DNA of 64,000 nt from Nannobrachium achirus (taxonomy: Eukaryota > Chordata > Actinopteri > Myctophiformes > Myctophidae): NCBI GenBank assembly GCA_963921795.1, contig OY997641.1, positions 27,717,035 to 27,781,034 of the forward strand. The letters are read 5' to 3'. Positions 1,255 through 63,535 of the stretch are shown piece after piece. The notes under the pieces were generated by a model. That model searched no databases and had not been told where the DNA came from. It was given only the letters and a program-made list of their open reading frames with translations. A program made the translations under genes and the position numbers. How positions within the stretch are numbered: position 1 is the stretch's first letter; each line of letters opens with the position of its first letter.

Positions 1255-1327
1255 AAAAATAGCAGATATAAAGGCTCACAGCGCAGCACAGAGTGCCGCG
1301 CTGCGAGCTTGTAGATCTGCTATTTTT
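1255..1327. repeat. dispersed hairpin core, full copy
   Basis: The left arm reads AAAAATAGCAGAT and later GGCTCACAGCGC. The right arm reads GCGCTGCGAGCTTGTAGATC then TGCTATTTTT. The arms pair almost completely around a short loop. It lies in hAT family B. Confidence 0.85.
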
Positions 1328-1544
1328 GTGAAAGTCGTGAAAATATGTGCAAATCTTTGAATATGTATTTTTTTTAAGCGTAAATTTGTAACTCAAATTT
1401 TACTTCTGAGAGGTCCCTGGAACTAAATATTTTGAGATGGGGGTCCGTGGCCAAATACATATCATTATAGAAACAGAGGTTTTTCAAAAAACCTTAGAAG
1501 GATTTGAAATATTCAAAGACTTGCACAAATGTTCACTATTTTCC

Positions 1545-1607
1545 AAAAACAGCAGATCTACAAACTCGCAGCGTGGCACGCTGTGAGCTTGTAGATATGC
1601 TATTTTT
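1545..1607. repeat. dispersed hairpin core, full copy
   Basis: Second hairpin in the same hAT element. The left arm has AGCAGATCTACAAACTCGCA; the right arm has TGTGAGCTTGTAGAT then ATGCTATTTTT, with a GCGTGGCACGC centre. Confidence 0.85.
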
Positions 1608-1685
1608 CAATAGTTAAAGTACAAAATAATCCAGTGAATCCTTGTACCAGGGCCCAGAATTTGGTGCGACACCCCTGACTAGCAG

Positions 1686-2244
1686 AGAGCTGTGTTGTGT
1701 GTGCTGTGGACAATGCAAGATCTGCGCTATTTGACTTAACAATGCTTATGCAAGTCAATGTGACACCAGCCAATGACAGGCACAATGATGGGCAAAGAAC
1801 AGGCATCAAAGGGGAGCGCACGTTTTCAGCAAGGAAAACTGATGGAGTCTTATCATTCGCCCACATGCTGGAGCTGCTGCTTGTCAGCTTTTAATCTCTT
1901 TGTGTTGCTCGCTCCACAATATGCACAGACAGACAGACAGATTGAAATAGACATGAACATAAATACTGCCTAACAATATTTCAGGGCCCATTCAATATTT
2001 TCTAGACGCAACCACTGACAAATTACAGGCAAAGAATTACCATTTTTTTTTCAAACTTTCAGGGAATAATAGGACATAATGGGGACATAGTTAACAATAA
2101 AGATGATTCAACTGTCTTGTTTGATTCTTTTATGATTAAGTAATTTATTTTTGTTACAACGTGACACTCAGTCTGGTCCCCATAGCCGGATACAAGACGT
2201 TCATCAATGACTCACCTGGTCTTCAAATTTCTGTTAAATTTATT
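1686..2244. other. non-coding stretch with short (ACAG)n
   Basis: Short open frames on both strands overlap each other and show no family features. A short ACAG tract is at 1924-1940. Confidence 0.4.
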
Positions 2245-3091
2245 GCGACCGTAGGTCGCATTTACTATCAAACCCTGCACAAAGTGTAAGTCCGTCAGTC
2301 AGTCAGTCAGTCAGTCAGTCAGTCAGTCAGTCAGTCTGTCTGTCTGTCACACCTCACACGTCACACTCTTGCCCTGCTCATATCTCCGCAACCGTTGCCC
2401 CGATCCATGCCAAATTTTGCACACACGTTCCTTACCTGCCAAACTACAACCTCCAAGGACCCCCGGAGCTCCAGGGACCCCCAGGTCCCTGGGGGACCCC
2501 CAGATGTAAAAAATGACCAAATGTGCTAAACTGACCAAATGACCACCCCCACGGGGCTGCTCACGGGGAATTCCCGGGGACCACCCACTCCTGGTGCTCC
2601 AGAACGGATGCAAAAGTGGTGGCGCCCCCAGTGGAGGACCCCCTACACTGCAGCTCACATAAAATGCCGTAACTCCGGCTATGAGCGACCGGGACAGCCG
2701 GGGCCGGTACCTATTCGTCCGCCTTGCCGGCGCGGAGACCCCACCCCTCATTTCTCACATGGCCCTCTTCTAGCGCCACCATGAGGCCGATTCTTGCAAA
2801 ACACATTTTTGGACACTGCTCCTACAATTTTTGCCCTAAAATCACGCAAATCGGTACACAGTATGTCTACACTCATCCCATCAACATGAATCTCTCCCAT
2901 ATAGCGCCACCTCCAGGCCGATTTTTAAAAACACATTTTTGGACACTGCTCCTACAGATTTTGCCCTAAAATCACGAAAATCACTACACAGTATGTCTAC
3001 ACTCATGTCATCAACATGGATCAGGAAGATTTTGGCAAAACACATTTTTGCCCTATTTGTGGAGATAAGTGACCTACGGTCGCTTATCTCC
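2245..3091 (+). mobile_element. unclassified element, family A copy 1, palindromic ends
   Basis: The left end is the self-palindrome GCGACCGTAGGTCGC (2245-2259). The right end (3061-3091) is a 14-bp hairpin around TAC whose centre is the reverse complement, GACCTACGGTCGC. The interior carries a (CAGT)n tract and repeated modules with the phrases AGCGCCACC, AAACACATTTTTGGACACTG and TCGGTACACAGTATGTCTAC. Related module arrays lie at 29425, 37775 and 57005. No protein is encoded, and I cannot name the superfamily. Confidence 0.6.
2295..2348. repeat. (CAGT)n microsatellite
   Basis: About eleven CAGT units followed by CTGT units, inside the family A element. Confidence 0.95.
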
Positions 3092-3430
3092 CGATTAGGG
3101 AGTGTTACTGGTTACCCAAAATCCTACCATGCTCCTTTCATCCGTTTGATGGCAAAGCACATCTAGAGTTTGGGCCGCTACGTGGCCATATGGACATATT
3201 GGTCAGAATGGCGGTTCTGGACAACCGCTTATCCGAACTACTTGACAGCGGGCACCACAATCTCTCAAGTCCTTGCCTATGCGTGAGCCTATGGGCGTAG
3301 GGGGTTTGTTTATGGTTATGTCTGAGTCAGAGTGACGTGGCCATGGTCCGCTGGCTGGCCAATCCTCCATTAAGCCAACTGGATGGCTACGGCCAAGGCA
3401 ACCACTACAGAGCTATCCAAAGCCATACCA
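3092..3430. other. non-coding stretch, nothing recognised
   Basis: No gene or clear repeat; overlapping short frames only. Confidence 0.4.
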
Positions 3431-3783
3431 CCATATTTCTACCAGGCTCAGTCGGTAGAGCACTCACCTTTCAACCACTAGGCAGTGGATTCGATCCCAA
3501 GCACTGCCAATTCAGTGTATGAGTATCACGGCTTGGGTGCATACTGGTAAATGGTGCATTTATATAGCGAAAGATTGTGCATTACATTCACACATTCATA
3601 CACCGATGGTGGAGGAAACCATGCAAGGCATCAACCTTCTCACCGGGAGCAACAAGGTGTTCAGAGTCTTGCTCAAGGACTCTTTGACACTAACTTTGGG
3701 GGAGCCCGGGATCGAACTGGGAACCCTTCGGGAACCCTCCGTGTTCTAAGACGGCAACTCTACCCCTGAGCATCTGGCAGCAA
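3431..3783 (+). mobile_element. tRNA-derived SINE-like repeat with common fish tail module
   Basis: The head has an A-box-like GGCTCAGTCGGTAGAGCAC and a B-box-like GGATTCGATCCC, as in tRNA-derived SINEs. The following module (from about 3547) starts TAAATGGTGCATTTATATAG and runs to CTACCCCTGAGCATCTG. Its 3' side contains an antisense B-box-like GGGATCGAACTGGGAACCC. The module recurs at 22269-22560 and 46886-47073, so it spreads separately from this head. Confidence 0.6.
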
Positions 3784-5433: not shown

Positions 5434-5785
5434 TTAGTGTTTATTTTGACAGCACATTTTTTTAGTCATAGTCTTTTCAATAAAATTCCATTTAGTTTTA
5501 GTCATATTTTATCTCACAACTTGTGAGCTTGTGGATCTGCCATTTTCAGAGCGCAAGCAAACATAAAATGACTTTCCTTTTAGTTCTACTGGATTTCTTC
5601 TCCACTATAGATCCTCCTTAACATTTTAGTCTATTTTTTATTTGTTGACAAAATTGACAATTATATAGTGTCATAGTTTTAGTCATCAAAGCATAGTTTT
5701 TAGTTTTCATTTAGTTTTCGTCAGTGAAAAAAGGTAGTCGACAAACATTATTCGTCATAGTTTTAGTCGCCGAAATCAACACTGC
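5434..5785 (+). mobile_element. hAT-like non-autonomous element, family F copy 1
   Basis: The octamer ACTAGCAA flanks the element perfectly at 5426-5433 and 5786-5793. The ends are inverted: AGTGTTTATTTTGACAGC on the left and GCCGAAATCAACACTG on the right. The interior is rich in TTTTAGTC repeats, and a hairpin-core half lies at 5512. A related, opposite-oriented copy is at about 60445-60980 and a fragment is at 11265-11410. Confidence 0.7.
5512..5548. repeat. hairpin core, half copy
   Basis: Right arm TGTGAGCTTGTGGATCTGCC then ATTTTC, preceded by a short CTCACAA that can pair with TTGTGAG. Confidence 0.7.
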
Positions 5786-8399: not shown

Positions 8400-8846
8400 C
8401 AGGGGTCTTCAACGTTTTCAGGCCAAGGACCCCTTAGTTGAGAGAGATGAAGCAGGGACCCCCACAGCCTTTTTGCGAATTCCACGTGGTTTCATTGTTT
8501 GACAGCACAAGCACAATCATCATTGAAATTCTGGATTAATGTAAATTTGTGTTTTCAGATATTTAACCACTTGAACCGTCAATACTTAATAAACTTGACC
8601 TTTCACTCTGTACTTGGTCTGCTCTTTTTCCCCTCTACAAAACCTCTTTGCCGAAGATTGTTGTGAGTTGTGATTGTTGTGAGTTGTGAGCTTGTAGATC
8701 TGCTATTTTTGTCTTAAATTCTCAGAATAAGAATGCTAGGGTTCAAGTGGTTAATATAAAAAAGGAGAAAAAAGGTTTCTATCACACAAAGATTTGGAGG
8801 ACCCCCTGTAGTGACTCTGAGGACCCCCTGTTGAAGAAAGACCTTG
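8400..8846 (+). mobile_element. hAT-type non-autonomous element, family C copy 1
   Basis: The perfect octamer CTGTATAT flanks it at 8392-8399 and 8847-8854. The left end is CAGGGGTCTTCAACG and the right end is CTGTTGAAGAAAGACCTTG. No transposase is present. Inside lies a TTAA-bounded unit (TTAACCACTTGAACC near 8567, AAGTGGTTAA near 8753) with a hairpin half at 8680. Sister copies are at 10471-10966 and 33909-34255. Confidence 0.85.
8680..8709. repeat. hairpin core, half copy
   Basis: Right arm only: TTGTGAGCTTGTAGATCTGC then TATTTTT. The left half is replaced by small TTGTGAGTTGTGA repeats. Confidence 0.75.
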
Positions 8847-10004: not shown

Positions 10005-10170
10005 TCCCATTCCATGGAGTGGAGAGGAGATGAAGGTCTGCCCTCTATGGTAAAGAGAAAGCCTCCTATCATACATGGCTTTGATCAAGGTTAATAATGC
10101 TGTAGCCTCGTTACCCAGGCATTTGTTGTTTGTTATTCATAATGCTGTGACTGAGTCTTACTCCCTGGAG
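10005..10170 (+). repeat. dispersed repeat, inverted partner at 21588-21720
   Basis: The stretch running GAAGGTCTGCCCTCTATGGT to ACTGAGTCTTACTCCCTGGA occurs in reverse complement at 21588-21720, with small gaps. The two lie about 11.5 kb apart in opposite orientation. No protein is encoded. Confidence 0.65.
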
Positions 10171-10470: not shown

Positions 10471-10966
10471 CAGGGGTCTTCAACAGGGGGTCCGGGGCGC
10501 TAGGGGGTCCTCAGAGTTACTACAGGGGGGCCTCCAAATCTTGTGTGATAGGATAATTATTTTAAATGAACAACTTGAACCCTCGCATCCCCATTCTGAG
10601 GATAACTTTGGCCAAAAATAGCAGATCTTCAAGCTCTCAACGCCTTGCACTCTAGGCGTTGAGAGCTTGTAGATCGGCTATTTTTGGCAAATAGGTTTGG
10701 TGTAGAGGCAAAAAAAAGAGCAGACCAAGTACAGAGTGAAAGGTCAAATTTACCAAGTGTCAATGATTTAAGTGGTTAAATATCTGAGAAAAAAAAATGA
10801 ACACGAATTTGACAATGCTGCCAATAAAAATATGCAACACAATTTTATACAATATGTTGTGGGGGTCCCTGCTTTATCTCCCTCTCAGCTAAGTGGTCCT
10901 GGGGGTCCCTGCTTTATCTCCCTCTCAGCTAAGCGGTCCGTGGCCGGAAAATGTTGAAGACCCCTG
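10471..10966 (-). mobile_element. hAT-type non-autonomous element, family C copy 2
   Basis: The ends CAGGGGTCTTCAAC and GTTGAAGACCCCTG are exact inverted repeats. The flanks TGCTAGAG (10463-10470) and CGCTAGAG (10967-10974) match at 7 of 8 positions. It is inverted relative to copy 1, carries a nearly perfect hairpin core at 10611, and holds a twofold repeat of a GGGGGTCCCTGC unit at about 10860-10935. Confidence 0.88.
10611..10688. repeat. dispersed hairpin core, best-paired copy
   Basis: 35-nt arms (10611-10645 and 10654-10688) pair at 33 positions around an 8-nt loop. The arm reads GCCAAAAATAGCAGATCTTC, then AAGCTCTCAACGCCT. Both arms carry CTCTC/GAGAG where most copies have CTCAC/GTGAG, a paired change. 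Confidence 0.95.
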
Positions 10967-20343: not shown

Positions 20344-20602
20344 CATCGCAAAACATTGCTTCGTTGTGGTCGGATGGAAACCTTGTACAGTATGTCCAAA
20401 ACTGTCTGTTTTGTGTTTCATCAAAAGTATCATCATTTTAAAAATGATTTAGAATAGTGAAAATAGCTGATCTACGTAGATCTGCTATTTTCACTAGTTT
20501 CGTGCGACAGTCTTGTGCGACAAAGCAGGGCTTTACTTTACGAAGAAACGTACACATTTGAAACTTGGAGATACAAGGTTTCTGCCCGACAGTGACACTT
20601 TG
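20344..20602 (+). mobile_element. palindromic short element, family D, with hairpin
   Basis: The left end contains GATGGAAACCTTGTACAGTA and the right end GATACAAGGTTTCTGCCCGA, which are inverted with respect to each other. The interior has the family phrases TTTTAAAAATGATTTAGAAT, TTTCGTGCGACAGTCTTGTG and GGGCTTTACTTTACGAA. A compact hairpin core lies at 20455-20496. Other copies are at 20800, 37509, 59159, 60201 and 63310. Confidence 0.65.
20455..20496. repeat. hairpin core, loopless short form
   Basis: A 42-bp palindrome, TAGTGAAAATAGCTGATCTA on the left and its near-exact complement on the right. It lacks the usual CTCACAAC inner part, so the centre has been deleted. Confidence 0.9.
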
Positions 20603-23699: not shown

Positions 23700-24990
23700 C
23701 AAATGTTTCAGTAATCTTGACAAAATAGCCTCTAAATTAGCCTTCTGCTAAATGTTTGGCATGTACGATGAATTACAAACCAGACCTTAAGTCTACATGC
23801 ACAAATAAATTCTCAAAAATCCCCAAACTGGAATGAAAATGATTGAGAGCGGAATGCTATAGATGCTTGTGTTTGAGCATTACACAGTACAATACAGGCA
23901 GGCCTTTAATCTATTATTTGTATTTCCTTGACTGAACTAGACAAGAGAATCTGTGTTAATTTAACTCCCTTACGGGTCCATTTTAACACTCTGGTTTAAA
24001 TAAACAGTGGGGATTCACTGTGTACACAGTGGTTGATTGATAAAGTCAAATCAAAGTGGAAAAATAAAAACAACGCAGACAAACATACTCTACTGCAAGT
24101 GCAGCCCAAGTAAGTTAATAAGACTTTATCAATAAAGCATCTGGGCGTTTTGTTTTGCTGTGATGAGGTTACCCATTTGGTCCCCTCCTTTTTGCCCTAC
24201 ACCAAATCCCTTTGGCCAAAATAGCGGGTCTACAATATCGGTTGTTGCAAATCGAGTGTTCCCCTACTGTAGGCCAGCTGTAGCTGCCTATTGTGACATG
24301 CCCAGAATAGGGATGCCATGGTTAATGTGGTTACCGGATCACTGTTATTATGAGGTTAGCTGGGATAGAAACATGACCAGGGGAGTAAAGTTGGGACTAT
24401 ACTTAATTGTGCACCGGGGGCCGGTATCACGCCTTCCGAGCTTCATACTTTGTGAACTTTCCTGCCAGAGAGATAAAGCAGGTGGCAACGGCGTTTGACA
24501 GATGTAGAAAACATCTGAGGCCACTTGCTTCCTCGCTTGCTTCCTCCAATTCCCTTCAAGCCTCTCGTCTCTTCAACCTCCCCCTCTCTCCCCCCCCCCC
24601 CCGCTGGCAGGGAGGAGGATGTAGGGAGGAAGTGCCGTGTCTGTCCTTGTTAATCAGTGAGCCTGCCTGGCGCTGCCGCTGGCTGGCTGATGTGGGAATG
24701 ATATACAGGCGGCGTAAGAGAGGCAATAAAATAAACACTGTACAGATCACCCTCTCGCCCCAAACACAATCCTCATCCATCACCCGACATCTGGTGTAAT
24801 GTCCTACAAATCAAGTCTTTGTACTTCTCTTTTGGGAATGAACGACATGGGGGAACGGCTGTGTTTTCTCGGGTCTGATCTATGGGTGTTTGTAAAGCTC
24901 CTCTCTGGACAATGAGAGGCAAAAATATCGGCAGCTTGATTGGTTTACGCCTTTTCATCATGCTCTGCTGTCAGAGGGAAAGAGAGAGAC
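23700..24990. other. unique-looking intronic DNA
   Basis: Mostly free of the repeats seen elsewhere apart from a C tract at 24590-24602 and a hairpin relic at 24215. Open frames of 112 and 130 codons show no domain and overlap in different frames. Conserved intronic regulatory DNA is possible but untested. Confidence 0.3.
24215..24237. repeat. hairpin core relic
   Basis: CCAAAATAGCGGGTCTACAA resembles the left arm of the copy at 45353, which has GCGGGTCTACAATG. Confidence 0.45.
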
Positions 24991-26431: not shown

Positions 26432-26780
26432 ATAACCACTTGAACCCCAGCATTAATATTCTCGGGGGGAACATTCAAAAATCTACAAGCTCAAAAAGGT
26501 GGGCTGTTTTAACTAAGAGATTTTGTGTAGGCCTATATAGAGCATAAAAAGAGCTCGATTGATTGAATACTTTATTAGCAGTTCACATAGGAAAACCACC
26601 GGACAGTACAGTTCAGATATCTCTGCTAATAGGATTTAAACCGAAGAAAACAATGGCTTGTTTACTTTTGGTTTTGGGTACTTTTGTACTCAATTTCATA
26701 GAGACATTAAATGACAGACAAATAGGCCTATAGCTATAGTAGGCTACAATTAATCAAGATTAGAGGGTTTAAGTGGTTAA
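26432..26780. repeat. TTAA-ended palindromic element, family H
   Basis: Left end TATAACCACTTGAACCCCAG and right end GGGTTTAAGTGGTTAA are inverted. The centre has a damaged hairpin half at 26468. Family H copies at 39066 and 45269 keep TTAA at both ends, as in piggyBac- or Kolobok-type target sites. Confidence 0.6.
26468..26507. repeat. hairpin core, half copy
   Basis: AACATTCAAAAATCTACAAG then CTCAAAAAGG; the right arm is not recognisable. Confidence 0.55.
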
Positions 26781-28100: not shown

Positions 28101-28578
28101 TGGTGTAGCTATAGTCTACATTTACTTAAGTAGGCTACTGTACTTATAAATACAATTTTTAGGTACTTTTACTTTCCTGGAGTAACCAATTTTCTGTAGG
28201 CCTACTTTTACTTTAGCCTACTTTTACGCCACTGCAATTAGTCTATATGAAAACTTAGTTATAAGTTATACTAGATTTTGATTAGCCTGAACACTAACCA
28301 CTTCAGCCCTATATATTTCGGCCATTTGAAAATTTGGCCATTTGAAAAAAGATCTACAAGCTCACATTGCCTAACACACTGTGAGCTTGTAGATCGTCTA
28401 TCTGCTTTTACTTTTGATGCTTTAAGTAGGCTACATTTTAATACCAATACCTTTGTACTTCTACTGAAGTACATTTTTAATTCCAGACTTTTACTTGTAA
28501 CAGAGTATTTCTAGATTGCAGTATTGATACTACTTTTACTTAAGTAAAAAAAAAAAGTAAAACATTTTTCCACCAGGC
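28101..28578 (+). repeat. family E repeat, copy with hairpin
   Basis: Characteristic phrases are TTTACTTAAGTAGGCTACTG, TTTTTAGGTACTTTTACTTT, AGTACATTTTTAATTCCAGA and the end ACATTTTTCCACCAGG. Other copies are at 32700-33112, 34545-34665, 41770-41905 and 62115-62300. A full hairpin core sits in the middle. Confidence 0.6.
28344..28401. repeat. dispersed hairpin core, full copy
   Basis: GATCTACAAGCTCACATTGC on the left and TGTGAGCTTGTAGATCGTCT on the right, loop CTAACACAC; it lies in family E. Confidence 0.85.
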
Positions 28579-28614
28579 TTATCTACAAGCTCACAGTAGA
28601 CGTGCTATTTTTGC
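28579..28614. repeat. hairpin core, shortened
   Basis: TTATCTACAAGCTCACAGTA then GACGTGCTATTTTTGCC: outer parts of both arms with the right GATCTACAAGC portion missing. It follows directly on the family E end. Confidence 0.65.
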
Positions 28615-30769: not shown

Positions 30770-31130
30770 GTAAAAATACATTTTGGCATAGGACTTTTTC
30801 ATTAAATGTTAATTAAATGTCTCATTTGTATTTGTAAGGGTCCATTTAAAAATAAACACTGGGTCATTTTTGTTTCCTAGATTTAGTTTTTCATTATTAT
30901 TTCAAAACATTTTCAAATCATTACCAATAATTTCATGAAGAAGAAACTAAGAAATCACATAAATTATAAAACAAGTGTTTAAGAAGTTGTGAAAAATAGC
31001 TGATCTACAAGCTCACCACACAAAAGCAACATGTTGTGACTTGTGAGGTGCTGTTTTCTCTAACAGGCTCACAACGCCAGCCGTTGTGAGCCTGTAGATC
31101 GGCTATTTTCAAATAGTCTGCAGGTATAAA
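30770..31130 (+). repeat. family G repeat, copy 1
   Basis: Shares with 31575-31960 the phrases ATTTTTGGCAT, TTTTTCATT-AAATG, GGGTCCATTTAAAAATAAAC, TTCAAAACATTTTCAAA and TACCAATAATTTCATGA, followed by a hairpin core. The two copies are direct repeats about 800 bp apart, separated by a LINE 3' end. Confidence 0.65.
30990..31111. repeat. hairpin core, doubled copy
   Basis: A left arm (AAATAGCTGATCTACAAGCT) and a decayed right arm (TGACTTGTGAGGTGCTGTTT) are followed by a second, tight hairpin, GGCTCACAACG-CCAGC-CGTTGTGAGCC, and CTGTAGATCGGCTATTTTC. Confidence 0.8.
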
Positions 31131-31574: not shown

Positions 31575-31960
31575 CAATAGTGTTTAAAAATAATTTTTGG
31601 CATAAAAGCTTTTTCATTTCAATTAAATGTTGTCTCATTTGTATAGACACACTTTCAAATACACTGTCAGAGTTACAGACTTGGGGTCCATTTAAAAATA
31701 AACACTGGTTTTAGATTTTTCATTATTTCAAAACATTTTCAAAGCATTACCAATAATTTCATGAGGAAATCAAAGAAGAAACTAAGAAATCACAAATTGT
31801 AAAATAAGTGTTTAAGAAGTTGATCTACAAACTCACAACACAGCACACAAGCAACATGTTGTGAGCTTGTAGATCTGCTGTTTTCTCTAGTTTGGGTCCC
31901 GGGCAAACTTATAATTTCTACTTTGGCTCTTGAGCTTAAAGGTTTGGGAACCACTGCCTT
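31575..31960 (+). repeat. family G repeat, copy 2
   Basis: Direct repeat of 30770-31130, here with a clean full hairpin at 31819. Confidence 0.65.
31819..31887. repeat. dispersed hairpin core, full copy
   Basis: TTGATCTACAAACTCACAAC on the left and GTTGTGAGCTTGTAGATCTG on the right around a loop of about 25 nt. Confidence 0.85.
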
Positions 31961-33908: not shown

Positions 33909-34255
33909 CAGGGGTCTTCAACGTTTTCAGATCAAGGACCCCTTAGTTGAGAGAGAGATGAAGCAGGGACCCCCACAACCTTTTGTACCTCAACCTCTGT
34001 GCTTAGTATGCTCTTTTTTCCCCTCCACACCTAAAGTATTTGCCGAAAATAGCCAATCTGCAAGCTCACAACACTTTGGAGTGTGAGGTGTTGTGAGCTT
34101 GTAGATCTGCTATTTTTGACCAAAGTTCTCAGAATATGGATGCTAGAATTCAAGTGGTTAATATAAAGTTTTCTATCACACAAAGATTTAGAGGACCCCT
34201 TAGAGTAACTCTGAGGACCCCCCAGGGGTCCCAGACCCCCTGTTGAAGACCCCTG
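33909..34255 (+). mobile_element. hAT-type non-autonomous element, family C copy 3
   Basis: Perfect octamer CACTAATA at 33901-33908 and 34256-34263. Ends CAGGGGTCTTCAACG and TGTTGAAGACCCCTG are inverted. It contains the hairpin at 34044 and the right end of the TTAA unit (TTCAAGTGGTTAA). It is shorter than copies 1 and 2 through internal loss. The perfect duplication suggests it moved more recently. Confidence 0.92.
34044..34117. repeat. dispersed hairpin core, full copy
   Basis: AAAATAGCCAATCTGCAAGC and TCACAACAC on the left; GTGTTGTGAGCTTGTAGATC and TGCTATTTT on the right. The inner AACAC/GTGTT pair replaces AACGC/GCGTT of other copies. Confidence 0.92.
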
Positions 34256-37508: not shown

Positions 37509-37711
37509 CATCGTCGTTGTTTGATGGAAACCTTGTCGTTAAAAACTATTTGAAAATAGCTGAAAATAGCCGATCTACAAGTACACAACACCTTGCGATG
37601 CGAGGCGTTGTGTGCTTGTAGATCGGCTATTTTCACTACTTTTGTGCGACATTCTTGTAGGATGAAGCAGGGTTTAACTTTACGAAACAAAAAACATATT
37701 CATTTGAAACT
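37509..37711 (+). mobile_element. family D element with hairpin, right end lost
   Basis: Left end CATCGTCGTTGTTTGATGGA; interior TTTTGTGCGACATTCTTGTA and GCAGGGTTTAACTTTACGAA. The usual right terminus is replaced. Confidence 0.6.
37561..37635. repeat. dispersed hairpin core, full copy
   Basis: AAATAGCCGATCTACAAGTA and CACAACACCT on the left; AGGCGTTGTGTGCTTGTAGA and TCGGCTATTTTC on the right. ACACAAC pairs with GTTGTGT in place of the usual TCACAAC/GTTGTGA. A second partial left arm precedes it at 37552. Confidence 0.92.
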
Positions 37712-39013: not shown

Positions 39014-39144
39014 TCATACATACGCTGTATCATACAGCGTTTTTGCCCAAGAGCGAGAATGTGTTTTAACCACTTTCAACTTGGTGTCCATATTTTGGGC
39101 TTCTCATTACTGGCAGAAATGTTCAAAGGTTTTCAAAGATAAGC

Positions 39145-39404
39145 AAATATAGCAGATCTACAAGCTCACTCAGCACATCACATTGGGGCCTTTTCCACCG
39201 GCAAAGAACCGGTTTGGGTTCTTTCTCCCGCCTATGGGATGGCAACTTTCTTGGAACCTTGGTATGTTTTTGTGAACCAACCTTTACGGTTTGGAACCAA
39301 CTCAGTTCTCGGTGGAAAAGCTCACCTCTGGTTCATCCCATAGGCGGGAGAACCCGAACCGGTTCTTTGCAGATGGAAAAGGCCGAGCTTGTAGAGCTAT
39401 TTTG
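39145..39404. repeat. hairpin core split by an insertion
   Basis: Left arm ATATAGCAGATCTACAAGCT at 39148-39167; right arm GAGCTTGTAGAGCTATTTTG at 39385-39404. The 198 bp in between are a separate palindromic element. Confidence 0.8.
39187..39384. mobile_element. 198-bp short palindromic transposon in hairpin loop
   Basis: The left end GGCCTTTTCCACCGGCAAAG and right end CTTTGCAGATGGAAAAGGCC are inverted, and the arms extend about 50 bp to CCCGCCTATGGGATG and CATCCCATAGGCGGG. No coding capacity; a target duplication was not resolved. Confidence 0.8.
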
Positions 39405-39607
39405 TGACACTATCGTATGACAAAGTATAAAATAGGACTTAAGTGGTTAATGGCCTGCATTAATTCATGAATACATTTATGTATACAAACCAGTAAGACG
39501 CCCTAAGGCGAGAAGCATGCACAATCGCACATGGGTGCGTGCATATGGGCGCTTTGGCATGGATACCCTTCTGCTGAGCTGGTCGAGTCATCACTGTGAT
39601 GTCGGAA

Positions 39608-44231: not shown

Positions 44232-44296
44232 TGAAAGATAGCAGATATACAAGCTCACAGCGAGGCCGCGCTGCGAGCTTGTAGATCTGCTATTTT
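44232..44296. repeat. dispersed hairpin core, full copy
   Basis: GATAGCAGATATACAAGCTC and ACAGCG on the left; CGCTGCGAGCTTGTAGATCT and GCTATTTT on the right. Confidence 0.9.
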
Positions 44297-44522
44297 AGAA
44301 AAATCGTGAAAATCGGAATATTTCAAATCCTTCTGAGGTTTTTTGAAAAACCTATGTTTCTATGTCAGTGGTGCTCAAATCTTTTCATGTGAAGGACCCC
44401 CAAAATGATATGTATTTGGCCACAAATCCCCATCTCAAAATATTTAGTTCTAGTAGGGACCCCCAGAAGCAAAAGTTTAGTAAAAAATACATAGATTCAA
44501 AGATTTGCACACATTTTCACGA

Positions 44523-44590
44523 CTTAGCAGATCTACAAGCTCACAGCGTGGCACTCTGTGCAGGGCTGTGAGCTTGTATCTGCTATTTTT
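44523..44590. repeat. dispersed hairpin core, full copy
   Basis: TTAGCAGATCTACAAGCTCA on the left; GGCTGTGAGCTTGTATCTGC on the right. Confidence 0.88.
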
Positions 44591-45268: not shown

Positions 45269-45456
45269 TTAACCACTTTCACCCTGGTGTTCCTATTTCG
45301 TGCGTGTTCTCGTGGGGACATCTTTGGAAAATATTAACTTAATTAAAATTCAAGAAAATAGCAAAAACTGCGGGTCTACAATGAGTCACACCGGTTGTGA
45401 GCTTGTAGATCAGCTATTTTTGCTAAACTTGTACTATATTGTGCTCAAGTGGTTAA
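45269..45456. mobile_element. TTAA-ended palindromic element, family H, intact form
   Basis: TTAACCACTTTCACCCTGGT at left and GTGCTCAAGTGGTTAA at right, 188 bp long, with the hairpin at its centre. This is the simplest complete setting of the hairpin: element end, spacer, hairpin, spacer, end. TTAA limits suit piggyBac- or Kolobok-like mobilisation. Confidence 0.72.
45353..45421. repeat. dispersed hairpin core, full copy
   Basis: AAAATAGCAAAAACTGCGGG and TCTACAATGAGTCACACCGG on the left; TTGTGAGCTTGTAGATCAGC then TATTTTTGC on the right. Confidence 0.8.
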
Positions 45457-48773: not shown

Positions 48774-49214
48774 CACCGGCTTCAAATGCTATCAATCCAT
48801 TCAAAGGGAATTTGTCATGTGTAATAAGAGCCTTGAATGGTGAGAGTAGCTGGCATACTGTCTACCCGGTAGGTGTTTGTCATTATTCTGTGGGTTGATA
48901 ATGGCTTTTGCTATTTTATCCCAGCTACTGCTATTGAAAACGAAACTTAAGCTCAGTAGGTGTTTTGTCATCATTCTGTGGCCGAAAATGTCACGTTGTT
49001 TTAGCGCTGGTTCAAATCTGGGGAGGGGAGAAAAATTATAATAATGACATTATTTAAATGTACTTTTCTCCGTGGCAAATATATGATAAGGTTATATGAA
49101 TATGGGCATTGTATGGCTCAACAGTTTAAAGTTTGTTACAGTTGCTATGGCAACCATAACAACGTGATTTCTTTTTGTTTATGTTTCTTTAAATTAATTC
49201 CCCTCCAATCCACA

Positions 49215-49269
49215 AAATGCAGCTTCTGGGTGATTCCCCCATGGGATAAATAAAGGAATCTATCTATCT

Positions 49270-49315
<46 letters not shown>

Positions 49316-49316
49316 C
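49215..49316 (+). repeat. LINE-type 3' end with (ATCT)n(ATCA)n tail
   Basis: GGGATAAATAAAGGAATCTA followed by TCTA and TCAA units, a common ending of fish non-LTR elements. The reverse complement lies at about 52664-52770. Confidence 0.6.
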
Positions 49317-49398
49317 AAGTTTATACAACACAGCTTTTTTTTTTTTTGTAATCTTTTTCGAACTTGTTAGAGTCTGTTTAGACACTTCTCTTAATACA

Positions 49399-49500
49399 CG
49401 AAGGAGTATGGTAGTCTACTGGTTGAGATGCTTGACCTGCAATCCTTCTACTTTTCCGCAGGGCAGAGGTTCAATTCCCAGAAGGGGTTGTGAATGGAAC
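49399..49500 (+). repeat. tRNA-like SINE head in left arm
   Basis: TAGTCTACTGGTTGAGATGC resembles an A box and GAGGTTCAATTCCCAG a B box. Mirrored in the right arm at about 52484-52583. Confidence 0.5.
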
Positions 49501-50082
49501 ATAATTATTTGAGCACATAGTTTCCACATTCGCTTTTTTTTGCTCAAAGGGGCTTTTCTAAATATATGTTATATAAATATTGGTCCATAATACGGTTTTA
49601 TATAGGTTTTACACTAAACAACCACTCGGATATTCATGATTATTCTGTCCAAAGAAATCACAATTTACAATATTATCGCGATAATCCTATCCTAACATCC
49701 ATTATCCTGGGGAGGAACATTAAACATGCTAATTTAATTGTTTTATTGGCTATATAGACTATTCTATATCATCCCTAGCCCATTGGTTCTCAAAGTGGGG
49801 TCCGGGGACCCCCAGGGGTCCTTCAGGGAGTTCCAGGGGATCCCCAGCTAAATGATAGTTAGGAACCAAATGGACCCTTATGGGTCTGTAACTCAGAGAG
49901 TGTAACTCAGCTAGCCTACACTCTCCGAGTTCAATTAATATTGATTTTACAATAATAAATGGGGTCATAGAGATTAAATGGGGGGTCCGTAGCCTAATGG
50001 AAAAGCAAACTAGGGGTCCTTGAAATTAAAATGGTTGGGAAAATCGGCTGAAAAATCTTCTCTTATGGGGGTCCCCGGCATT

Positions 50083-51904
50083 ACATTGACTCAGTTCCAC
50101 AGATAGGCTACATGTTGTGAAAACAGCAGATCTACAAGCTTGCTTGCAAAGGCATTGCCATTTTTGAGACGCCATTTTATTATTCTGCTCCAGGATTCTG
50201 GCTACCCCCCCCAAATCACATGTGCGAAGTCCGAATATGCAGGTTTTATTTCGATGCACCATCGTCTGTACGACAACCAGAAGTGCCTCAAATAGCCACT
50301 TCCTGGTGTGTTTCAGGCAGTTCCCGGAAGTAACCCTGGAATTTTACCACTTCCCTAGACTAATTTTGGGACGCAGAGTTGAATGGTACCAGTCTTATGT
50401 CTTTATAACAACCGGAAGTGCCTCAAATAGCCACTTCCTGGTGTGTTTCAGGCAGTTCCAGGTCAGTAGGTGTTCCGATATATTTTTTATCCAAAACTAC
50501 ACGTAATTTTAGCCCTAAGCTTGAAATTAGTAAGGCGAATATCCTATTGTGATTTTATAGTAATTAAAAGAATGCTAACCCTAGCGTCGCACAGCGAATG
50601 TCGCAACGAAACGAAACACATATCAAAGCGTGCGTCTCAATGCGCTCTAAAACATACTAAAAGATGAGCCCATGAAATGCATTGGTTCGTGAATAAAAGC
50701 CAACCCTAGTTAGCCTAGGGTTAGCCTTTTAGCCTTAATAACTCAGAGACGATAAGATATCAGAACTCCGTTTTGAGATATGTTGTAGTGCTTTCCGAGA
50801 CGAACATTTTGATATCTCATATGTCCCTCTACGACATTCTTATCCCTGGGATCTCCAATTTCACAAGGGTCATAGAGTGTATACCCCTTAGAGCCCTTTG
50901 GCCAGCAAACCAAAGTTACCAATCAACTCACAGGAGTGTTTGTGTGCGAGGAGAGTTATATAGGCTTGTTCGTCTCTGCGATACGAACACGCTGATGTGT
51001 CTATCATCTCTCTACGACATTCGTGTACGGAGTAAAACGTACCCCTAGTTGGAATTAGGGTTAGCCCCCTAGGAGTCGCTCAGAAATGACACACACATCA
51101 ATGCGTCCGTCTCGGTGAGCAGATCAAGAATCTGTTACCCTTTTGTCTCTACGACCCCTAGAACCCGAGCTAGCCCTTCTAGAAGTGTTAGAAACGGACC
51201 GAAATATTTTCAAACAACGGCACCAGCACCAACGGACTTGGCGTCAAAAAGTACGTCGGAATAAGTGTCCTTTATCCGAAAAAATGTGTAATCGTGTTCA
51301 TGGCGTGCAAATTTCGTGTCTTTTTCGCAATAGGAAAGGGTTAAAATTGTCGGAGATTCCCGAAACCCATTCCATTGGATCGGGCATACTTCAAATATGA
51401 AAGGCGTGTCCTGCCTGAAACAGCCAGATTTTATTTGAATATTTTATTGATTTTAAGGCCAAAAGGCCCATTTTGGAGCCATAAGCGACCTTTTTCCTTG
51501 ACCTTTAGAGTTAGGAGTGTTGTAGAGAGACAAGACTGGGTTCATTGGATTCAGGGTCAAAAAGCGTGTTAGAATAAGTGTCTTTTATCTGGGAAAATGT
51601 TTAATTCAGCTTACGCAGTTGAAATAGGGTATTTTTTTAGACCCCGAAATCGTGATTTGACCCCTTCGATCTTAAAAAAGCAAATGAAACTCTAGGTCAG
51701 GATTTGAGGGGGGGCCTTCTGCAATGAGACCCTATGTGGAAGCTGGTTCAAATCTGGTGCTGTTGCATTGTTTGAAGGAAGCCAAACCAAAATAGGTTTT
51801 AATCTTATGTACCTGTACAGTACATCAGTGGTTCTCAAACCATTTCATGTCAAGAACCCCCAAATTGACACTTATTGGCCCGTCGTCCCTCATTTGAAAA
51901 GATA
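50083..51904. other. unidentified core of the giant inverted-repeat element
   Basis: No known domain in any frame longer than about 90 codons. It holds a hairpin half at 50117 and a direct duplication (50273-50326 and 50408-50460) with AAGTGCCTCAAATAGCCACT. A second pair about 312 bp apart (near 51241 and 51553) has TCAAAAAG, GAATAAGTGTC, TTTATC and AAAATG in the same order. An internal pair near 50795-50850 and 50975-51030 shares CTCTACGACATTC. It looks like a mosaic of old duplications, possibly decayed element coding sequence. Confidence 0.5.
50117..50144. repeat. hairpin core, half copy
   Basis: GTGAAAACAGCAGATCTACA then AGCTTGCTTG; left arm only. Confidence 0.7.
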
Positions 51905-52665
51905 TGCCGGAGACACACACAAGAGAAGATTTTTCAGCCGATTTTCCCAACCATTTTAATTTCAAGGACCCCCAGTTTGCCTTTCCATTAGGGTACGGAC
52001 CCCCCATTTAATCTCTGACCCCATTTATTATTGTAAAATCAATATTAATTGAACTCGGAGAGTGTAGGCTAGCTGAGTTACACTCTCTGAGTTACAGACC
52101 CATAAGGGTCCATTTGGTTCCTAACTATCATTTAGCTGGGGATGCCCTGGAACTCCCTGAAGGACCCCTGGGGGTCCCCGGACCCCACTTTGAGAACCAA
52201 TGGGCTAGGGATGATATAGAATAGTCTATATAGCCAATAAAACAATTAAATTAGCATGTTTAATGTTCCTCCCCAGGATAATGGATGTTAGGATAGGATT
52301 ATCGCGATAATATTGTAAATTGTGATTTCTTTGGACAGAATAATCATGAATATCCGAGTGGTTGTTTAGTGTAAAACCTATATAAAACCGTATTATGGAC
52401 CAATATTTATATAACATATATTTAGAAAAGCCCCTTTGAGCAAAAAAAAGCGAATGTGGAAACTATGTGCTCAAATAATTATGTTCCATTCACAACCCCT
52501 TCTGGGAATTGAACCTCTGCCCTGCGGAAAAGTAGAAGGATTGCAGGTCAAGCGTCTCAACCAGTAGACTACCATGCTCCTTCATGTATTAAGAGAAGTG
52601 TCTAAAGAGACTCTAACAAGTTCGAAAAAGATTACAAAAAAAAGAAAAAGCTGTGTTGTATAAAC

Positions 52666-52706
<41 letters not shown>

Positions 52707-53207
52707 AGATAGATAGATTCCTTTATTTATCCCGTGGGGGAATCACCCAGAAGCTGCATTTTGTGGATTGGAGGGGAATTAACTTAAAGAAACATAAACA
52801 AAAAAAAAATCACGTTGTTATGGTTGCCATAGCAACTGTAACAAACTTTAAACTGTTGAGCCATACAATGCCCATATTCATATAACCTTATCATATATTT
52901 ATTTGCCATGGAGAAAAGTACATTTAAATAATGTCATTATTATAATTTTTCTCCCCTCCCCAGATTTGAACCAGCGCTAAAACAACGTGACATTTTCGGC
53001 CACAGAATGATGACAAAACACCTACTAAGCTTAAGTTTCGTTTTCAATAGCAGTAGCTGGGATAAAATAGCAAAAGCCATTATCAACCCACAGAATAATG
53101 ACAAACACCTACCGGGTAGACAGTATGCCAGCTACTCTCACCATTCAAGGCTCTTATTACACATGACAAATTCCCTTTGAATGGATTGATAGCATTTGAA
53201 ATGGGTG
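51905..53207 (-). repeat. right arm of the giant inverted repeat
   Basis: Reverse complement of the left arm with few differences. Both arms keep an identical 63-codon open stretch (49566-49757 plus, 52226-52417 minus), a sign of recent origin or of gene conversion rather than of coding use. Confidence 0.85.
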
Positions 53208-59158: not shown

Positions 59159-59369
59159 CATCGTCGTTGTCGGGTGGAAACCTTGTATGTCCATTTTTAA
59201 AATGATTTAAACTAGTGAAAAAAGCCAATCTACAAGCACACAACGCCTCACACAGCTGTTTTCACTACTTTTGTGCAACAGCCTTGTATGATGGAGCAGT
59301 GCTTTACTTTGCAAAAATTACACATTGAAACTTGGAGATACGTGGTTTCTGCCGGACAGTGACGATATG
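59159..59369 (+). mobile_element. family D element with hairpin
   Basis: Ends CATCGTCGTTGTCGGGTGGA and TCTGCCGGACAGTGACGATA are inverted. The interior has TTTTTAAAATGATTTAAACT, the hairpin, and CTTTTGTGCAACAGCCTTGT. 211 bp, non-coding. Confidence 0.75.
59214..59267. repeat. hairpin core, partly deleted copy
   Basis: TAGTGAAAAAAGCCAATCTA and CAAGCACACAACGCC on the left; only the outer AGCTGTTTTCACTA on the right. Confidence 0.75.
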
Positions 59370-59750: not shown

Positions 59751-59829
<79 letters not shown>

Positions 59830-59830
59830 C
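59731..59830. repeat. (CT)n(CTGT)n microsatellite
   Basis: About 19 CTGT units after a CT run. Confidence 0.97.
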
Positions 59831-60200
59831 ACTCTCTCTGTGGCACCAGTTGCTGTACACCCTGCAGTACAGCTTTGCACGCACTGCCTTGTCTGGGTTG
59901 GATCTTTAGTGATTAATGCATTATGACCGTCCTTCATGCTTTGCATCTGTGAGGACATTCGACTCAGTCTCCGCCTGAGGCCTAAAGGCTCTAAACATAT
60001 TAGAGATGATTTCAATGTCAGACATAAGTTCCAGATGTGAAACTGACGGTGGGACAATTGGTTCTGTATTATTGGGCTTAAGGGGTGGAGGAATTGGACG
60101 CAGAGGCTCAGATTGAAACCCTTGCTGTATTTTATAGGCTATTGGCTGTAATAACAGGGCATCAGCAGTCTGGGCTGACACAACCAACATGGGAAACAGC

Positions 60201-60387
60201 CATATCGTCGTGGAAACCTTGTACGGTATATATGGTCCAAACCGTTTGTTTTGTATTCATCATTTTAAAAATGAAAGTTTTGTGCGACACTTTTGTATGA
60301 TGAAGTAGGGCTTTAATTTACAAAAAAAAACAACAAAAAAAACACATTTGAAACTTGGAGAGGTTTCTGCCCCACAGTGTCGATATG
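60201..60387 (+). mobile_element. family D element without hairpin (possible empty site)
   Basis: Ends CATATCGTCGTGGAAACCTT and CCCACAGTGTCGATATG. The interior runs CATTTTAAAAATGA directly into AAGTTTTGTGCGACACTTTT. The hairpin and its TAGTGAAAA/TTTTCACTA flanks, present at this point in the 20344 and 59159 copies, are absent. Confidence 0.7.
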
Positions 60388-60444
60388 CTGTATACAGTAC
60401 TGCTGGTTTGAATTTATTTTAGTTATTCCGCAGGTCTCCATACT

Positions 60445-60980
60445 ACAGTGTCTACAGTGACTAAAACTATGACGAAAAATTATCGACAACTACCTTTTTC
60501 CCCCTGACGAAAACTAAATAAGAACTAGATAAAAAGAATATGCATAAGCTATGATGACTAAAACTATGACAATTAGGTCAACATCAAAACTAGTTGTTAG
60601 GGAGGGACTAGTGGAGAAAAGATCCAGTTGAACTATTTAGTTATCAGTTTTTTTGTTTAGTTGCGCTCGGGTGCTGCACTCTAAAAATAACAGATCTTCA
60701 AGCTCTATAATCTACAATCTACAAGCTCAGAGCGATGCATTATGAGCTTGTAGATCGGCTATTTTCAGCATGCAACCAAGTCAGCCATTACAATGATCAT
60801 TATAGCCAAAATTCATTTTATTCAACAAAATCAACCCTAGATTTAATCAACAAAAATCTTATGCTATTTAATCAACTAAAACTACACTAAAACTAACTTT
60901 CTGACAACTAAAATATCACTAAAACAATATGCGTTTTTGTTCAAAAGAGTAAAACTAAATGCTGCCAAAATCAACTCTGC
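60445..60980 (-). mobile_element. family F element with hairpin, copy 2
   Basis: Left TACAGTGACTAAAACTATGA and right GCTGCCAAAATCAACTCTGC match the ends of the 5434 element in reverse. Target duplication not resolved. Confidence 0.6.
60683..60767. repeat. dispersed hairpin core, full copy with repeated arm
   Basis: AAAATAACAGATCTTCAAGC and a second TCTACAAGCTCAGAGCGATG on the left; TTATGAGCTTGTAGATCGGC and TATTTTCAG on the right. Confidence 0.82.
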
Positions 60981-60992
60981 TATTATACCATA

Positions 60993-61879: not shown

Positions 61880-62030
61880 TTCAATGTTATATGGATCTGA
61901 AAAAAGGATCTCAGTGTAAATAAGCCTCAAGGCTTACCTGAGGTTTCTTTTAGTTGACCTTGTATCAGTGAACTGTACTGTCATGAAACTGTACCTTTCC
62001 CTATGCAAACTTCTACTTCAATCAGTACTG
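61880..62030 (+). mobile_element. LINE 3' end, second copy
   Basis: ATTCAATGTTATATGGATCT, GTAAATAAGCCTCAAGGCTT, ACCTTGTATCAGTGAACTGT and CATGAAACTGTACCTTTCCC, in the same order as 31360-31500. Confidence 0.55.
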
Positions 62031-62114
62031 TTTCGGGCCCACTAGGGGGCAGTGCAGCTGCAAAGTCACAGTGTAGAAGGGAGGACAACACCTGTGGCTT
62101 TAGTGTACCTTTAG

Positions 62115-62300
62115 TTCTGGAAAGTAACATTTAGCCTACTCAATTACTGTACTTAAGTATAGCCTAGTAATTTTATCTACTTTTAATTTACTTGAGTTAG
62201 TTGAGTATGTCCATTTCTCAATACTTTATACATCTCAGAGAGTCAAATGTTGTACTTTTTACTCCACTACAATTATTTGAAAACTTTAAGCTACTTTTTG
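62115..62300 (-). repeat. family E fragment
   Basis: TACTGTACTTAAGTATAGCC, TTTACTTGAGTTAGTTGAGT and ACTTTTTACTCCACTAC fit the family. Confidence 0.5.
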
Positions 62301-62670
62301 TAGATTTTGATAATTATTTAAAAACATACATTAAAGGGATTTTTTTCCTATTGATTACTCACCCCATGAAGATTTGAGTTCATGGATATTTTTTGTTTTG
62401 AAACAAATTTTGAAAAACGTTTGAACCATTCTCATGCCAATAGTACTTTAACTGTTTTTTTTATACAGGGCTGTTACTTAGAGTATTTCTCAAGAAAGAA
62501 AAAAAAAAGATCTGTACTCTCCCCCCTCCACACTGACCATCACCTCTTTCATGTATCTGCATCTTTCATATGTGTCCCAAATTTGATTGTCAGTGTCAAC
62601 TATATCATATAAATGCTTTGATGTTTCATTATTTTGCCTATCAAAGACTCTGATGGGCAGTTTCATGTCT
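62301..62670. other. non-coding stretch
   Basis: No gene recognised. Confidence 0.4.
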
Positions 62671-62674
62671 ACAG

Positions 62675-63248
62675 CAGTTGTTTTCTAACTTTGTGTGCTC
62701 AAGGCACGCCAAAGGTATATGCAAATCTGCCTCTACAACAACTATCCTATATCACTCTATAAATGGTTATTTTCCATTTTCTACCGTAATTTAAAAATTT
62801 GAAAACATAGTAGGGTATATCATGTCCCTCTGTTAGGGATGTTGGCTATAGTAAATTATAGTAAACTAATCTCTAACTTTTCGAGTGGTTCTCGATCTCC
62901 TGTACCAGGAGCCATAAGCTCCAACATCTGGCTTTGTCCGGTCAAAAACTGATGGGAAAAAGGTGTAAAAGAATTTCCGGGGTTTAAGTAAACTGAAGCG
63001 TGGCCTACAACTGAACAAGATAATATGGCCTACATCTTGGCACAAACGGCTCAAAAGTTGTTGTGCGCCCATGCAGGGTCCCATGGGCCAAGCTTCACAG
63101 GACACGCTGTGATTGGCTAGTGGGACACTTGATGAAATTAACTCATGAATAGCACCGCTCACTTCACACTAGGTGTGATTATTAGTATAATGCAATAATA
63201 ATGTGTGTTTGTCACAAAATCCCAAGGCACAGCGCCTGGGAACCACTG
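62675..63248. mobile_element. possible hAT-like element
   Basis: CAGTTGTTTTCTAACTTTGT at left and CTGGGAACCACTG at right are inverted, with AAGGCAC near both ends. Flanks match weakly (5 of 8). Confidence 0.45.
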
Positions 63249-63309
63249 CTCTAGAATGCTATTTGTCCTGTGGAAGAGCTAAGGGTGCGAGTGTAAAAAC
63301 ACAACTTAG

Positions 63310-63535
63310 CAGAAACCGGGTAGAAACCTTGCATGTCGTCCATTGTCAAAAACTTGTTCCCTTTAAAAAATAAATCTTAAAATAGTGAAAATAGACAATG
63401 TACAAGCTCATGCTGTGAGCCGCTATTTTTTGCGTGACACTCTTGTATGTATGATGAGTATAGAGGATTCATTTACAAAAAAAAGTTGAAATTGTGAAGA
63501 TACAAGGTTTCTGCCCGACACCAACGACGGCAATG
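63310..63535 (+). mobile_element. family D element with hairpin
   Basis: CAGAAACCGGGTAGAAACCT at left and CAAGGTTTCTGCCCGACACC at right; interior AAAATAAATCTTAAAATAGT, then the hairpin, then TGCGTGACACTCTTGTATGT. Confidence 0.65.
63382..63430. repeat. hairpin core, shortened copy
   Basis: TAGTGAAAATAGACAATGTA, CAAGCTCATGCTGTGAG, CCGCTATTTTTTG: the inner right GATCTACAAGC portion is missing. Confidence 0.75.

Follow-up and report, generated by a model that had tools for sequence, protein, structure and literature searches.

A palindromic hairpin in several transposon families of Nannobrachium achirus is probably the conserved centre of a clan of TTAA-targeting MITEs

Background

How does one and the same hairpin come to lie within several families of short transposons whose remaining sequences look unrelated? 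The question is raised by a stretch of 64,000 nucleotides from the myctophid fish Nannobrachium achirus (the window), in which a first-pass annotation had described a palindromic core recurring in one transposon family after another. It had considered that the core might be a very small palindromic mobile unit, the repeatedly captured centre of an old TTAA transposon, or a structure that helps its carriers to spread.

Results and discussion

Abundance of the hairpin

The repeated core is real. An exact 11-mer of its arm, GATCTACAAGC, is present in 463,584 copies in the 1.66-Gb genome (231,940 + 231,644, against 54 + 43 for the reversed-pattern control), and 71,519 hairpins carry both 11-mers exactly, with none in the control. 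In the window itself there are 39 matches to this 11-mer at one mismatch or fewer, against 1.04 expected from 100 shuffles, while a 27-bp profile of the arm recovered 44 arms above 10 bits and none in five Markov controls. Grouped by hand, these arms make up about 31 sites, as the annotation had reported; 14 of them have both arms above 10 bits and several others retain part of the second arm. The length of the hairpin is most often 71 bp. In 24 stretches of 10 kb picked by position alone we counted 67 exact 11-mers, against 67.1 predicted from the genome-wide rate, which indicates that the window is typical of the genome. A fuzzy regular-expression scan of the arm proved too blunt (10 matches against 8, 4 and 5 in shuffles). 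No Rfam family reached its gathering score in the window, five of its sequence strings had no match in the literature text searched, and searches with the exact motif gave 0 and 4 matches in viral contigs and a single match in bacterial and archaeal genomes, all of which we judged to be due to chance.

A clan of TTAA-ended elements

The one complete context in which the hairpin could be placed is that of a TTAA-ended element with the layout TTAACCACTT...hairpin...AAGTGGTTAA. In type C this takes the form of TTAACCACTTGAACC, a spacer, the hairpin, a second spacer and GGTTCAAGTGGTTAA, spanning about 170-220 bp and often near 205 bp. The main terminus begins with CCACTT, a less frequent B-type terminus reads CCCATTTAG, and the subfamilies have in common about 24 bp of each hairpin arm, AAAATAGCnGATCTACAAGCTCAC. 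The 13-bp terminus AACCACTTGAACC has 37,383 exact copies in the whole genome (18,880 + 18,503; control 31 + 28). An exact arm followed after 18-48 nucleotides by an exact AAGTGGTTAA was found at 10,057 places (5,064 and 4,993; control 0), with a chance upper bound of 165-496; this count covers the short side only, and is to be set against the 463,584 exact arms. Conversely, 14 of 21 exact terminus 10-mers in a 304-kb sample have an arm no more than 130 bp away. These elements are short, have inverted termini with TTAA at both ends and reach a high copy number, as is usual for MITEs, their lack of coding capacity being judged from their length. We consider it probable that a large clan of such short, non-coding, TTAA-targeting transposons, some of them nested in other families, has the hairpin as its conserved central part.

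Two elements in the window, H1 (39066-39450, plus strand) and H2 (45269-45456, minus strand), have TTAA at both ends, and they start exactly at 39066 and 45269 as the annotation had proposed for its TTAA-ended family. A palindromic element nested in H1 at about 39187-39384 separates its hairpin arms (39147-39169 and 39385-39403), and H2 has an arm at 45394-45420. Nesting is observed directly in the hAT-like family C. Its copy C1 contains a type C element (8563-8754, plus strand) with exact 15-bp termini at both ends, two TTAAs and one clear arm at 8683-8709, which was aligned with those of copies C2 and C3 and with a free copy. The element in C2 (10567-10779, plus strand) is supported by termini with two mismatches each, by its fold and by the alignment; it ends in TTAA and TGAA and has its hairpin at 10615-10684. 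In C3 there is a remnant (34046-34161, plus strand) that has lost its left end, with the hairpin at 34046-34116 and the right terminus at 34147-34161. No family C copy lacking the insert was found among 40 scored of 2,159 candidates. An eroded type C element at 24150-24334 (minus strand) lies outside any family C host and is recognized by the alignment and by profile matches (E 2.7e-5 and 0.001) at 24284-24334, and another eroded member at 26432-26780 (plus strand) retains a single arm, at 26481, between termini of ATAA and TTAA.

Spacers that connect the host families

The annotation had further held the families around the hairpin to be unrelated. They proved to be less so than claimed: the terminus and the arms are common to the subfamilies and the spacers between them have diverged, which is why the hosts looked unrelated. 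We delineated six types of spacer between arm and terminus, using a query that itself fixed both of these. The 100 listed cases, from the first 22.7 Mb of genome sequence C1 and sorted by hand-made patterns, comprise 60 of type C, 13 of the E1-type, 9 of J, 7 of E, 4 of B and 2 of D, with 5 unassigned. Among the places listed, the AAGTGGTTAA terminus is thus preceded by flanks of each of the types B, C, D and E. The spacers fall into two groups, {C,J} and {B,D,E,E1}, and no similarity of one group to the other was found among the 100.

Window flanks were compared with terminus-ended spacers in pairs chosen by the analyst. The Tol2-like family E copy E1 contains half of a clan element (28294-28401, plus strand), with a left terminus at three mismatches and the hairpin but without the right end, and its spacer matches a terminus-ended one at a level reached in 0 of 5000 shuffles. 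The same 0/5000 was obtained for copy E2 (32868-32937), whose left flank is an E-type clan spacer, and for the right flank of G1 (30993-31109), likewise E-type; in G1 the left part of family G and the left part of family E are joined at their hairpins. Beside E1 lies a second, degraded hairpin (28570-28611) with a J-type clan spacer on its right. In the hAT-like family B, hairpin B1a (1256-1326) has an inverted mate, B1b (1546-1606), in the same element, and a second copy contains B2a (44235-44296) and B2b (44521-44589). The outer flank of B1b is a B-type clan spacer and that of B1a is as in the other B hairpins; the shuffle comparison covered B1b (0/5000), B2a (1/5000) and B2b (0/5000). Family D has a nearly perfect hairpin in copy D2 (37563-37633), which folds at z -12.2 as DNA and whose right flank is a D-type clan spacer (0/5000), a short one in D1 (20460-20491; right flank 9/5000), and degraded ones in D3 (59218-59265) and D4 (63388-63431) recognized by the arm profile. 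All these hairpins of families E, G, B and D are on the plus strand, as is G2 (31816-31884) of family G. For G2, and for the one-armed F1 (5505-5546, minus strand) and F2 (60684-60765, plus strand) of family F, no link to a TTAA terminus was found. CAG-type ends were found in hosts B, C, E and G; the name hAT for these and for F, with CAG...CTG-type ends and an 8-bp target duplication, is one we assume.

In the 304-kb sample GGTTAA occurred within 120 bp on 9 of 21 B sides, and on none of 3 F, 2 G, 16 I, 3 K, 4 J and 22 D sides. The link of B thus consists of 4 of the 100 places listed together with these 9 sides, and that of D, given 0/22, of 2 of the 100 places. Profile searches of the window flanks did not connect H with any of B, D, F and G, and when flank profiles were built iteratively from H1.R and nine other seeds, none took in anything beyond its seed at E 0.01. 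Two pairwise flank comparisons are weak on their own (K with H1.R 13/2000, D with K 19/2000), and that of G.R with D.L gave no signal (255/2000). A candidate spacer word, AAGTATAAAATAGGAC, was dropped: beyond B.out and E.L it had 6 near matches against 3 reversed and 0 far in 151 sides. Descent from one hairpin-carrying element, which the annotation had proposed to examine through the flanks, is upheld for B, C, D and E by whole-genome intermediates, though window profiles by themselves failed to reveal such descent in B, D, F and G. Its idea of a captured TTAA transposon centre likewise holds for B, C, D and E, and F and G are without a demonstrated link.

Conservation of the arms and of stem symmetry

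The flank set numbered 179, with arms below 13 bits and those near the end of a locus or beside N omitted. Of 69 flank clusters, 42 were kept after leaving out singletons below 20 bits. Across these 42 the arms hardly vary, and conservation is lost within about 5 bp of the edge. Between families, identity is 0.67 in the arms, 0.30 over the next 9 bases and 0.26 in the background; the conservation of the arms is inflated, as they were found by similarity. Since founding, the arms have decayed about as much as the flanks (386 of 439 against 2349 of 2792 positions identical). A 'founder consensus' (mean 0.735) was discarded, as mis-registered E rows spoil it.

The stem tips vary and yet remain self-complementary. 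In 53 distinct tips of 31 bases, 654 of 795 cells pair, against 570 in shuffles (maximum 594); four of the 100 listed hairpins are missing from the set, none of them of the 31-base class. In 20 hand-picked hairpins we counted 25 double-changed cells against 7.6 expected (0/500), 9 double-changed pairs against 5.1 (5/500) and 20 further pair types against 16.7 (28/500). Palindromic extension into the flanks within a site was not detected (own mean 2.09 against 1.55, permutation p about 0.45).

The sharp edge in all 42 clusters, the contrast between arms and adjacent bases, and the existence of a family D copy without the hairpin (D5, 60195-60395, plus strand) are what one would expect if a palindrome of about 71 bp were mobile by itself and had landed in many transposons, the TTAA-ended ones included. 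We nevertheless regard such a unit as improbable. In 11 two-armed sites the hairpin edges are without direct repeats (own mean 1.27, cross-family mean 1.69, permutation p about 0.77), a single terminus stands at the expected distance from 10,057 arms, and the tips differ by context while staying palindromic, unlike those of one recently spread unit. Copy D5 is 0.84-0.87 identical to the hairpin-bearing D1, D2 and D3 and 0.77 to D4; being as close to D1-D3 as D1 is to D3 (0.83), it does not look basal, and its lack of a hairpin is probably a loss. The small mobile unit of the first-pass annotation is accordingly not supported: the hairpin edges have no target duplication, and a TTAA-ended element is the sole complete context established.

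It is equally doubtful that recombination, or template switching at palindromes during gap repair (filler DNA), passed the hairpin from one element to another, unrelated one, in which case the core would be shared without shared descent. The composite G1 and the dissimilarity of the two spacer groups despite a common terminus and arms would agree with such an exchange, but both groups precede the same terminus at a similar distance, and G1 is a single copy that reads as a deletion between neighbours. Retention for an RNA role, as a small-RNA precursor or structured RNA, is least likely of all: two-sided changes uphold the stem symmetry and the D2 stem folds well, but no Rfam family reached its threshold in the window, the outer 24 bp are conserved in sequence beyond what pairing alone would require, and pairing data, including G:T against A:C counts, do not separate RNA from DNA constraint because the orientation is arbitrary.

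Proposed history and comparison with known systems

We thus favor the view that the hairpin occurs in other transposon families largely through the landing of mini-transposons rather than the jumping of bare hairpins. During diversification of the clan two parts, the terminus and about 24 bp of each arm, would have been kept alike between subfamilies, while the stem tip drifted but retained self-complementarity and, mostly, its length. Clan members would have landed at TTAA within hAT-like and other elements, some host-plus-clan composites would then have been copied, and many TTAA termini may have eroded later to leave a bare-looking hairpin. For B and D we infer acquisition by nesting, and for the clan in general copying of the composites by their hosts and secondary loss of the termini.

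Angel is a hairpin-forming MITE of fish with a relative inside a hAT element, the internal inverted repeats of Tol2, so a precedent for such an arrangement exists in fish. The copy number of Angel in zebrafish is given as 10^3-10^4 (PMC2579443). The closest published parallel is the coral CMITEs of Acropora, described as short non-coding elements with a TTAA duplication, about 100 bp long, with about 1,600 copies in A. millepora and CC[C/T]T ends; their families have in common an internal region of about 75 bp that is more conserved than the ends, for which the authors suggest a role in transposition, and a new element, CMITE-IN, was born from a CMITE insertion (PMC2872659). Compared by description, both systems comprise several TTAA MITE families in which conservation is higher in a shared internal region than elsewhere in the element, the fish arms being shared by 42 flank clusters. 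The fish elements differ in their length of about 170-220 bp, their mostly 71-bp palindromic core, their TTAACCACTT ends and their 463,584 exact arms, and the words "hairpin" and "secondary structure" are absent from the text of the CMITE paper (PMC2872659). The T2-MITEs of Xenopus, in the Kolobok superfamily, are presented as a long-lived TTAA MITE clan with many subfamilies (PMC6004289), but their ends begin with AGGRR, unlike the CCACTT of our clan. Repetitive hairpin-forming elements with conserved stems and variable loops are described from sponge mitochondria, in an account that makes no mention of a TTAA-ended context where it describes them (PMC2800124).

The ends of piggyBac and piggyBat are reported to consist of a tip motif and an internal palindromic repeat bound by paired C-terminal domains of the transposase, with TTAA as the target (PMC11707139). 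The clan resembles this superfamily in its TTAA target duplication, seen at both ends of C1, H1 and H2; no empty allele was seen. It differs in the arrangement of its two internal repeats, which are opposed within a single hairpin, and in its main tip, CCAC, as against the CC[C/T]T given as the piggyBac hallmark (PMC2872659). By this analogy each arm could be an internal transposase-binding signal, and the hairpin the internal repeats of both ends brought face to face after the middle was deleted; we see this as a serious possibility that falls somewhat short of being probable. No transposase-encoding relative with clan ends was found in the 4 inspected of at least 116 piggyBac loci, all of them without AACCACTT (PF13843 had 116 matches scored among 952 candidates, many of which are open). 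More tentatively, the 24-bp arm and an enforced palindromic symmetry might constitute a shared internal transposition signal, through which TTAA MITEs with otherwise unrelated interiors would use common machinery and hitch-hike in hAT-like elements, the stem being re-perfected during clan evolution by two-sided changes. The annotation's notion of a structure that helps its carriers to spread would survive in this altered form, in that the arms and the palindromic symmetry are the conserved parts.

Conclusions

One hairpin in seemingly unrelated transposons thereby becomes a tractable case of MITE evolution, in which the parts that were kept can be told from those that turned over. It also advises caution, as a core common to several transposon families can be what is left of nested elements. 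Like the coral CMITEs, the subfamilies have retained an inner part in common, in this genome with arm copies in the hundreds of thousands and with the symmetry of the palindrome maintained, and the contribution of internal MITE sequence to mobility becomes testable within one genome.

Prevalence of the hairpin

The repeated hairpin reported by the first-pass annotation is real: the window contains 39 matches to GATCTACAAGC at no more than one mismatch, as against 1.04 expected, and a 27-bp profile of the arm (one side of the hairpin) recovered 44 arms above 10 bits but none in five Markov controls. Grouped by hand, the arms fall into about 31 sites, the number previously given, with both arms above 10 bits at 14 of these. 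Those starts of the short transposon families that were looked for lie where they had been placed (B at 1142 and 44188, C at 8400, 10471 and 33909, H at 39066 and 45269). The window also carries an inverted repeat of about 1.3 kb with 97.5% identity (48781-50081 and 51904-53200), adjoined by repeats of about 85 bases.

Across the assembly (1,658,514,493 bases; window at G000:C4:27717035-27781034) the exact 11-mer occurs 463,584 times, or once per 3.6 kb, versus 97 for a reversed-pattern control. Twenty-four 10-kb stretches selected on position alone (240 kb) yielded 67 copies, matching the prediction from the genome rate, and 147 profile arms of at least 12 bits. Hairpins with both 11-mers exact and 18-48 bases between them number 71,519 genome-wide, and 21 of the 53 two-armed hairpins in a 304-kb sample of the genome span 71 bases.

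A clan of TTAA-ended elements

In family C the hairpin sits within a TTAA-ended insert, which in copy C1 (8563-8754) starts with TTAACCACTTGAACC and ends in its reverse complement, with TTAA on either side. C1, C2, C3 and one further copy with other flanks (near 24.2 kb) are alignable over most of their length, and the family H copies H1 and H2 share this architecture. The 13-base terminus is found 37,383 times genome-wide (control 59). Read side by side, the 11-mer, hairpin and terminus listings often show a terminus 100 bases away from the arm at one end and about 40 away at the other, so that an element measures about 170-220 bp. We noted that the H1 hairpin loop holds a nested palindromic element distinct from the hairpin (39187-39384). 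Among the 44 genome-wide matches listed for the family C right flank, over 30 are 97-100% identical across about 74 bases, indicating that the composite of hAT-like C and nested clan element was amplified recently.

One explanation offered by the annotation was repeated capture of an old TTAA transposon centre, which would be supported if H flanks extended into the other families. Window-only profiles of B, D, F and G flanks show no match to H. Anchored flank comparisons between families scored at least 12 in 13 of 889 pairs (1.5%, versus 0.1% shuffled and 0.2% displaced). The 179 arm flanks of the 304-kb sample form 69 clusters, 52 of them singletons; in this sample B flanks lead on either into a hAT-like end or, with GGTTAA in 9 of 21, into a TTAA end, E flanks into a recognisable, often mutated clan terminus, and none of 22 D flanks into such a terminus, while F, G and the further classes I and K show no link to it.

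The decisive query for family links was an arm followed after 18-48 bases by AAGTGGTTAA, which occurs at 10,057 places genome-wide (control 0; chance bound 165-496). The 100 places listed, all within the first 22.7 Mb of contig G000:C1 and sorted with hand-made patterns, comprise spacers of type C (60), E1 (13), J (9), E (7), B (4) and D (2), with 5 unassigned; among them, C and J show no visible relationship to B, D, E and E1. For flank-spacer pairs that we picked, leaving out the B1a, D3 and D4 flanks, no shuffle in 5000 equalled the match of the terminus-ended spacer to the window flanks of D2, B1b, B2b, E2 and E1 or to the E-derived right half of G1; B2a (1/5000) and D1 (9/5000) were weaker. 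All these matches lie well beyond the shuffles, and the cores in B, C, D and E thus belong to a single TTAA-ended clan. Capture is thereby favoured for these four families, F and G having no such link; flank links, lacking for B, D, F and G in the window profiles, appear for B, C, D and E in the terminus-ended spacers listed from the genome.

The alternative of a small self-moving palindromic unit is disfavoured, as none of 11 two-armed sites has a direct repeat at the hairpin edges, in contrast to the TTAA-flanked elements, and the hairpin-less family D copy, D5, does not look basal, its identities to the hairpin-bearing D1, D2 and D3 (0.84-0.87; 0.77 to D4) comparing with 0.83 between D1 and D3. 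D5 retains the right flank common to the clan spacer, and loss of an unstable palindrome fits it better. No empty family C site was found among the 40 of 2,159 candidates scored. G1 itself (30993-31109) is a chimera, whose G half reaches just beyond its own hairpin and whose E half joins inside the E hairpin, the join spanning a few bases common to both.

Conservation of the arms

In 42 of the 69 flank clusters (weak singletons left out), arm positions -24 to -1 are near invariant save -9, although choosing matches by score biases this towards good arms. Conservation is lost within about 5 bases past the outer edge and declines more slowly towards the tip, in these clusters as in a smaller set. 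Stem interiors were analysed for 96 of 100 listed hairpins, the other four having lengths other than 31 bases; 60 are 31 bases long, and the 53 distinct 31-mers have complementary opposing cells in 654 of 795 cases, versus 570 with reshuffled partners (maximum 594). Twenty hand-picked hairpins gave both-side changes in 25 cells versus 7.6 (0/500), 9 pairs versus 5.1 (5/500) and 20 further pair types versus 16.7 (28/500), counts for which kinship alone can surpass such shuffles. As arms (386/439 identical) and flanks (2349/2792) decay alike within host families, we infer that arm likeness between subfamilies was kept by active lineages, not by protection of dead copies.

Possible origin and relationship to known systems

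Putative fish precedents are Angel and the Tol2 internal repeats. PiggyBac ends are described as containing 19-bp palindromic internal repeats, identical to one another, to which two C-terminal domains of the transposase bind (PMC11707139). A MITE made of two piggyBac-like ends back to back would read terminus, spacer, arm, arm, spacer, terminus, and arms and termini would be kept while spacers were free. The layout observed here matches this pattern, the arms being putative internal repeats. The clan terminus starts with CCAC, not CC[C/T]T, and clan ends are absent at the four piggyBac loci examined, of at least 116. Four piggyBac loci (L038-L041) have open frames of 541-589 aa and are almost devoid of TTAA (0/3501, 0/3301, 1/3401 and 3/3401 bases, respectively). 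Random sequence contains about 6 TTAA per kb, and no TTAA-free run there exceeds 1651 in the N-free sampled loci; the scarcity would fit a kilobase-scale avoidance by these elements of the site they target. At L040:355-610 a hairpin-bearing family D element lies in a duplicated stretch upstream of the transposase frame. At G000:C2:71.3-71.8 Mb piggyBac transposase matches are clustered on one strand, most with open frames.

The closest published case found is that of the coral CMITEs, which are TTAA MITE families with a common internal region of about 75 bp, better conserved than the ends and of unknown origin (PMC2872659). The region shared between families is palindromic here, and copy number exceeds that of the CMITEs by a factor of tens to hundreds. 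T2-MITEs (PMC6004289) likewise form a TTAA clan but have other ends. Neither an account of the hairpin nor any of its sequence strings turned up in literature searches of a collection without most subscription journals. The system is a hairpin-centred TTAA MITE clan, whose repeated nesting accounts for most of the puzzle.
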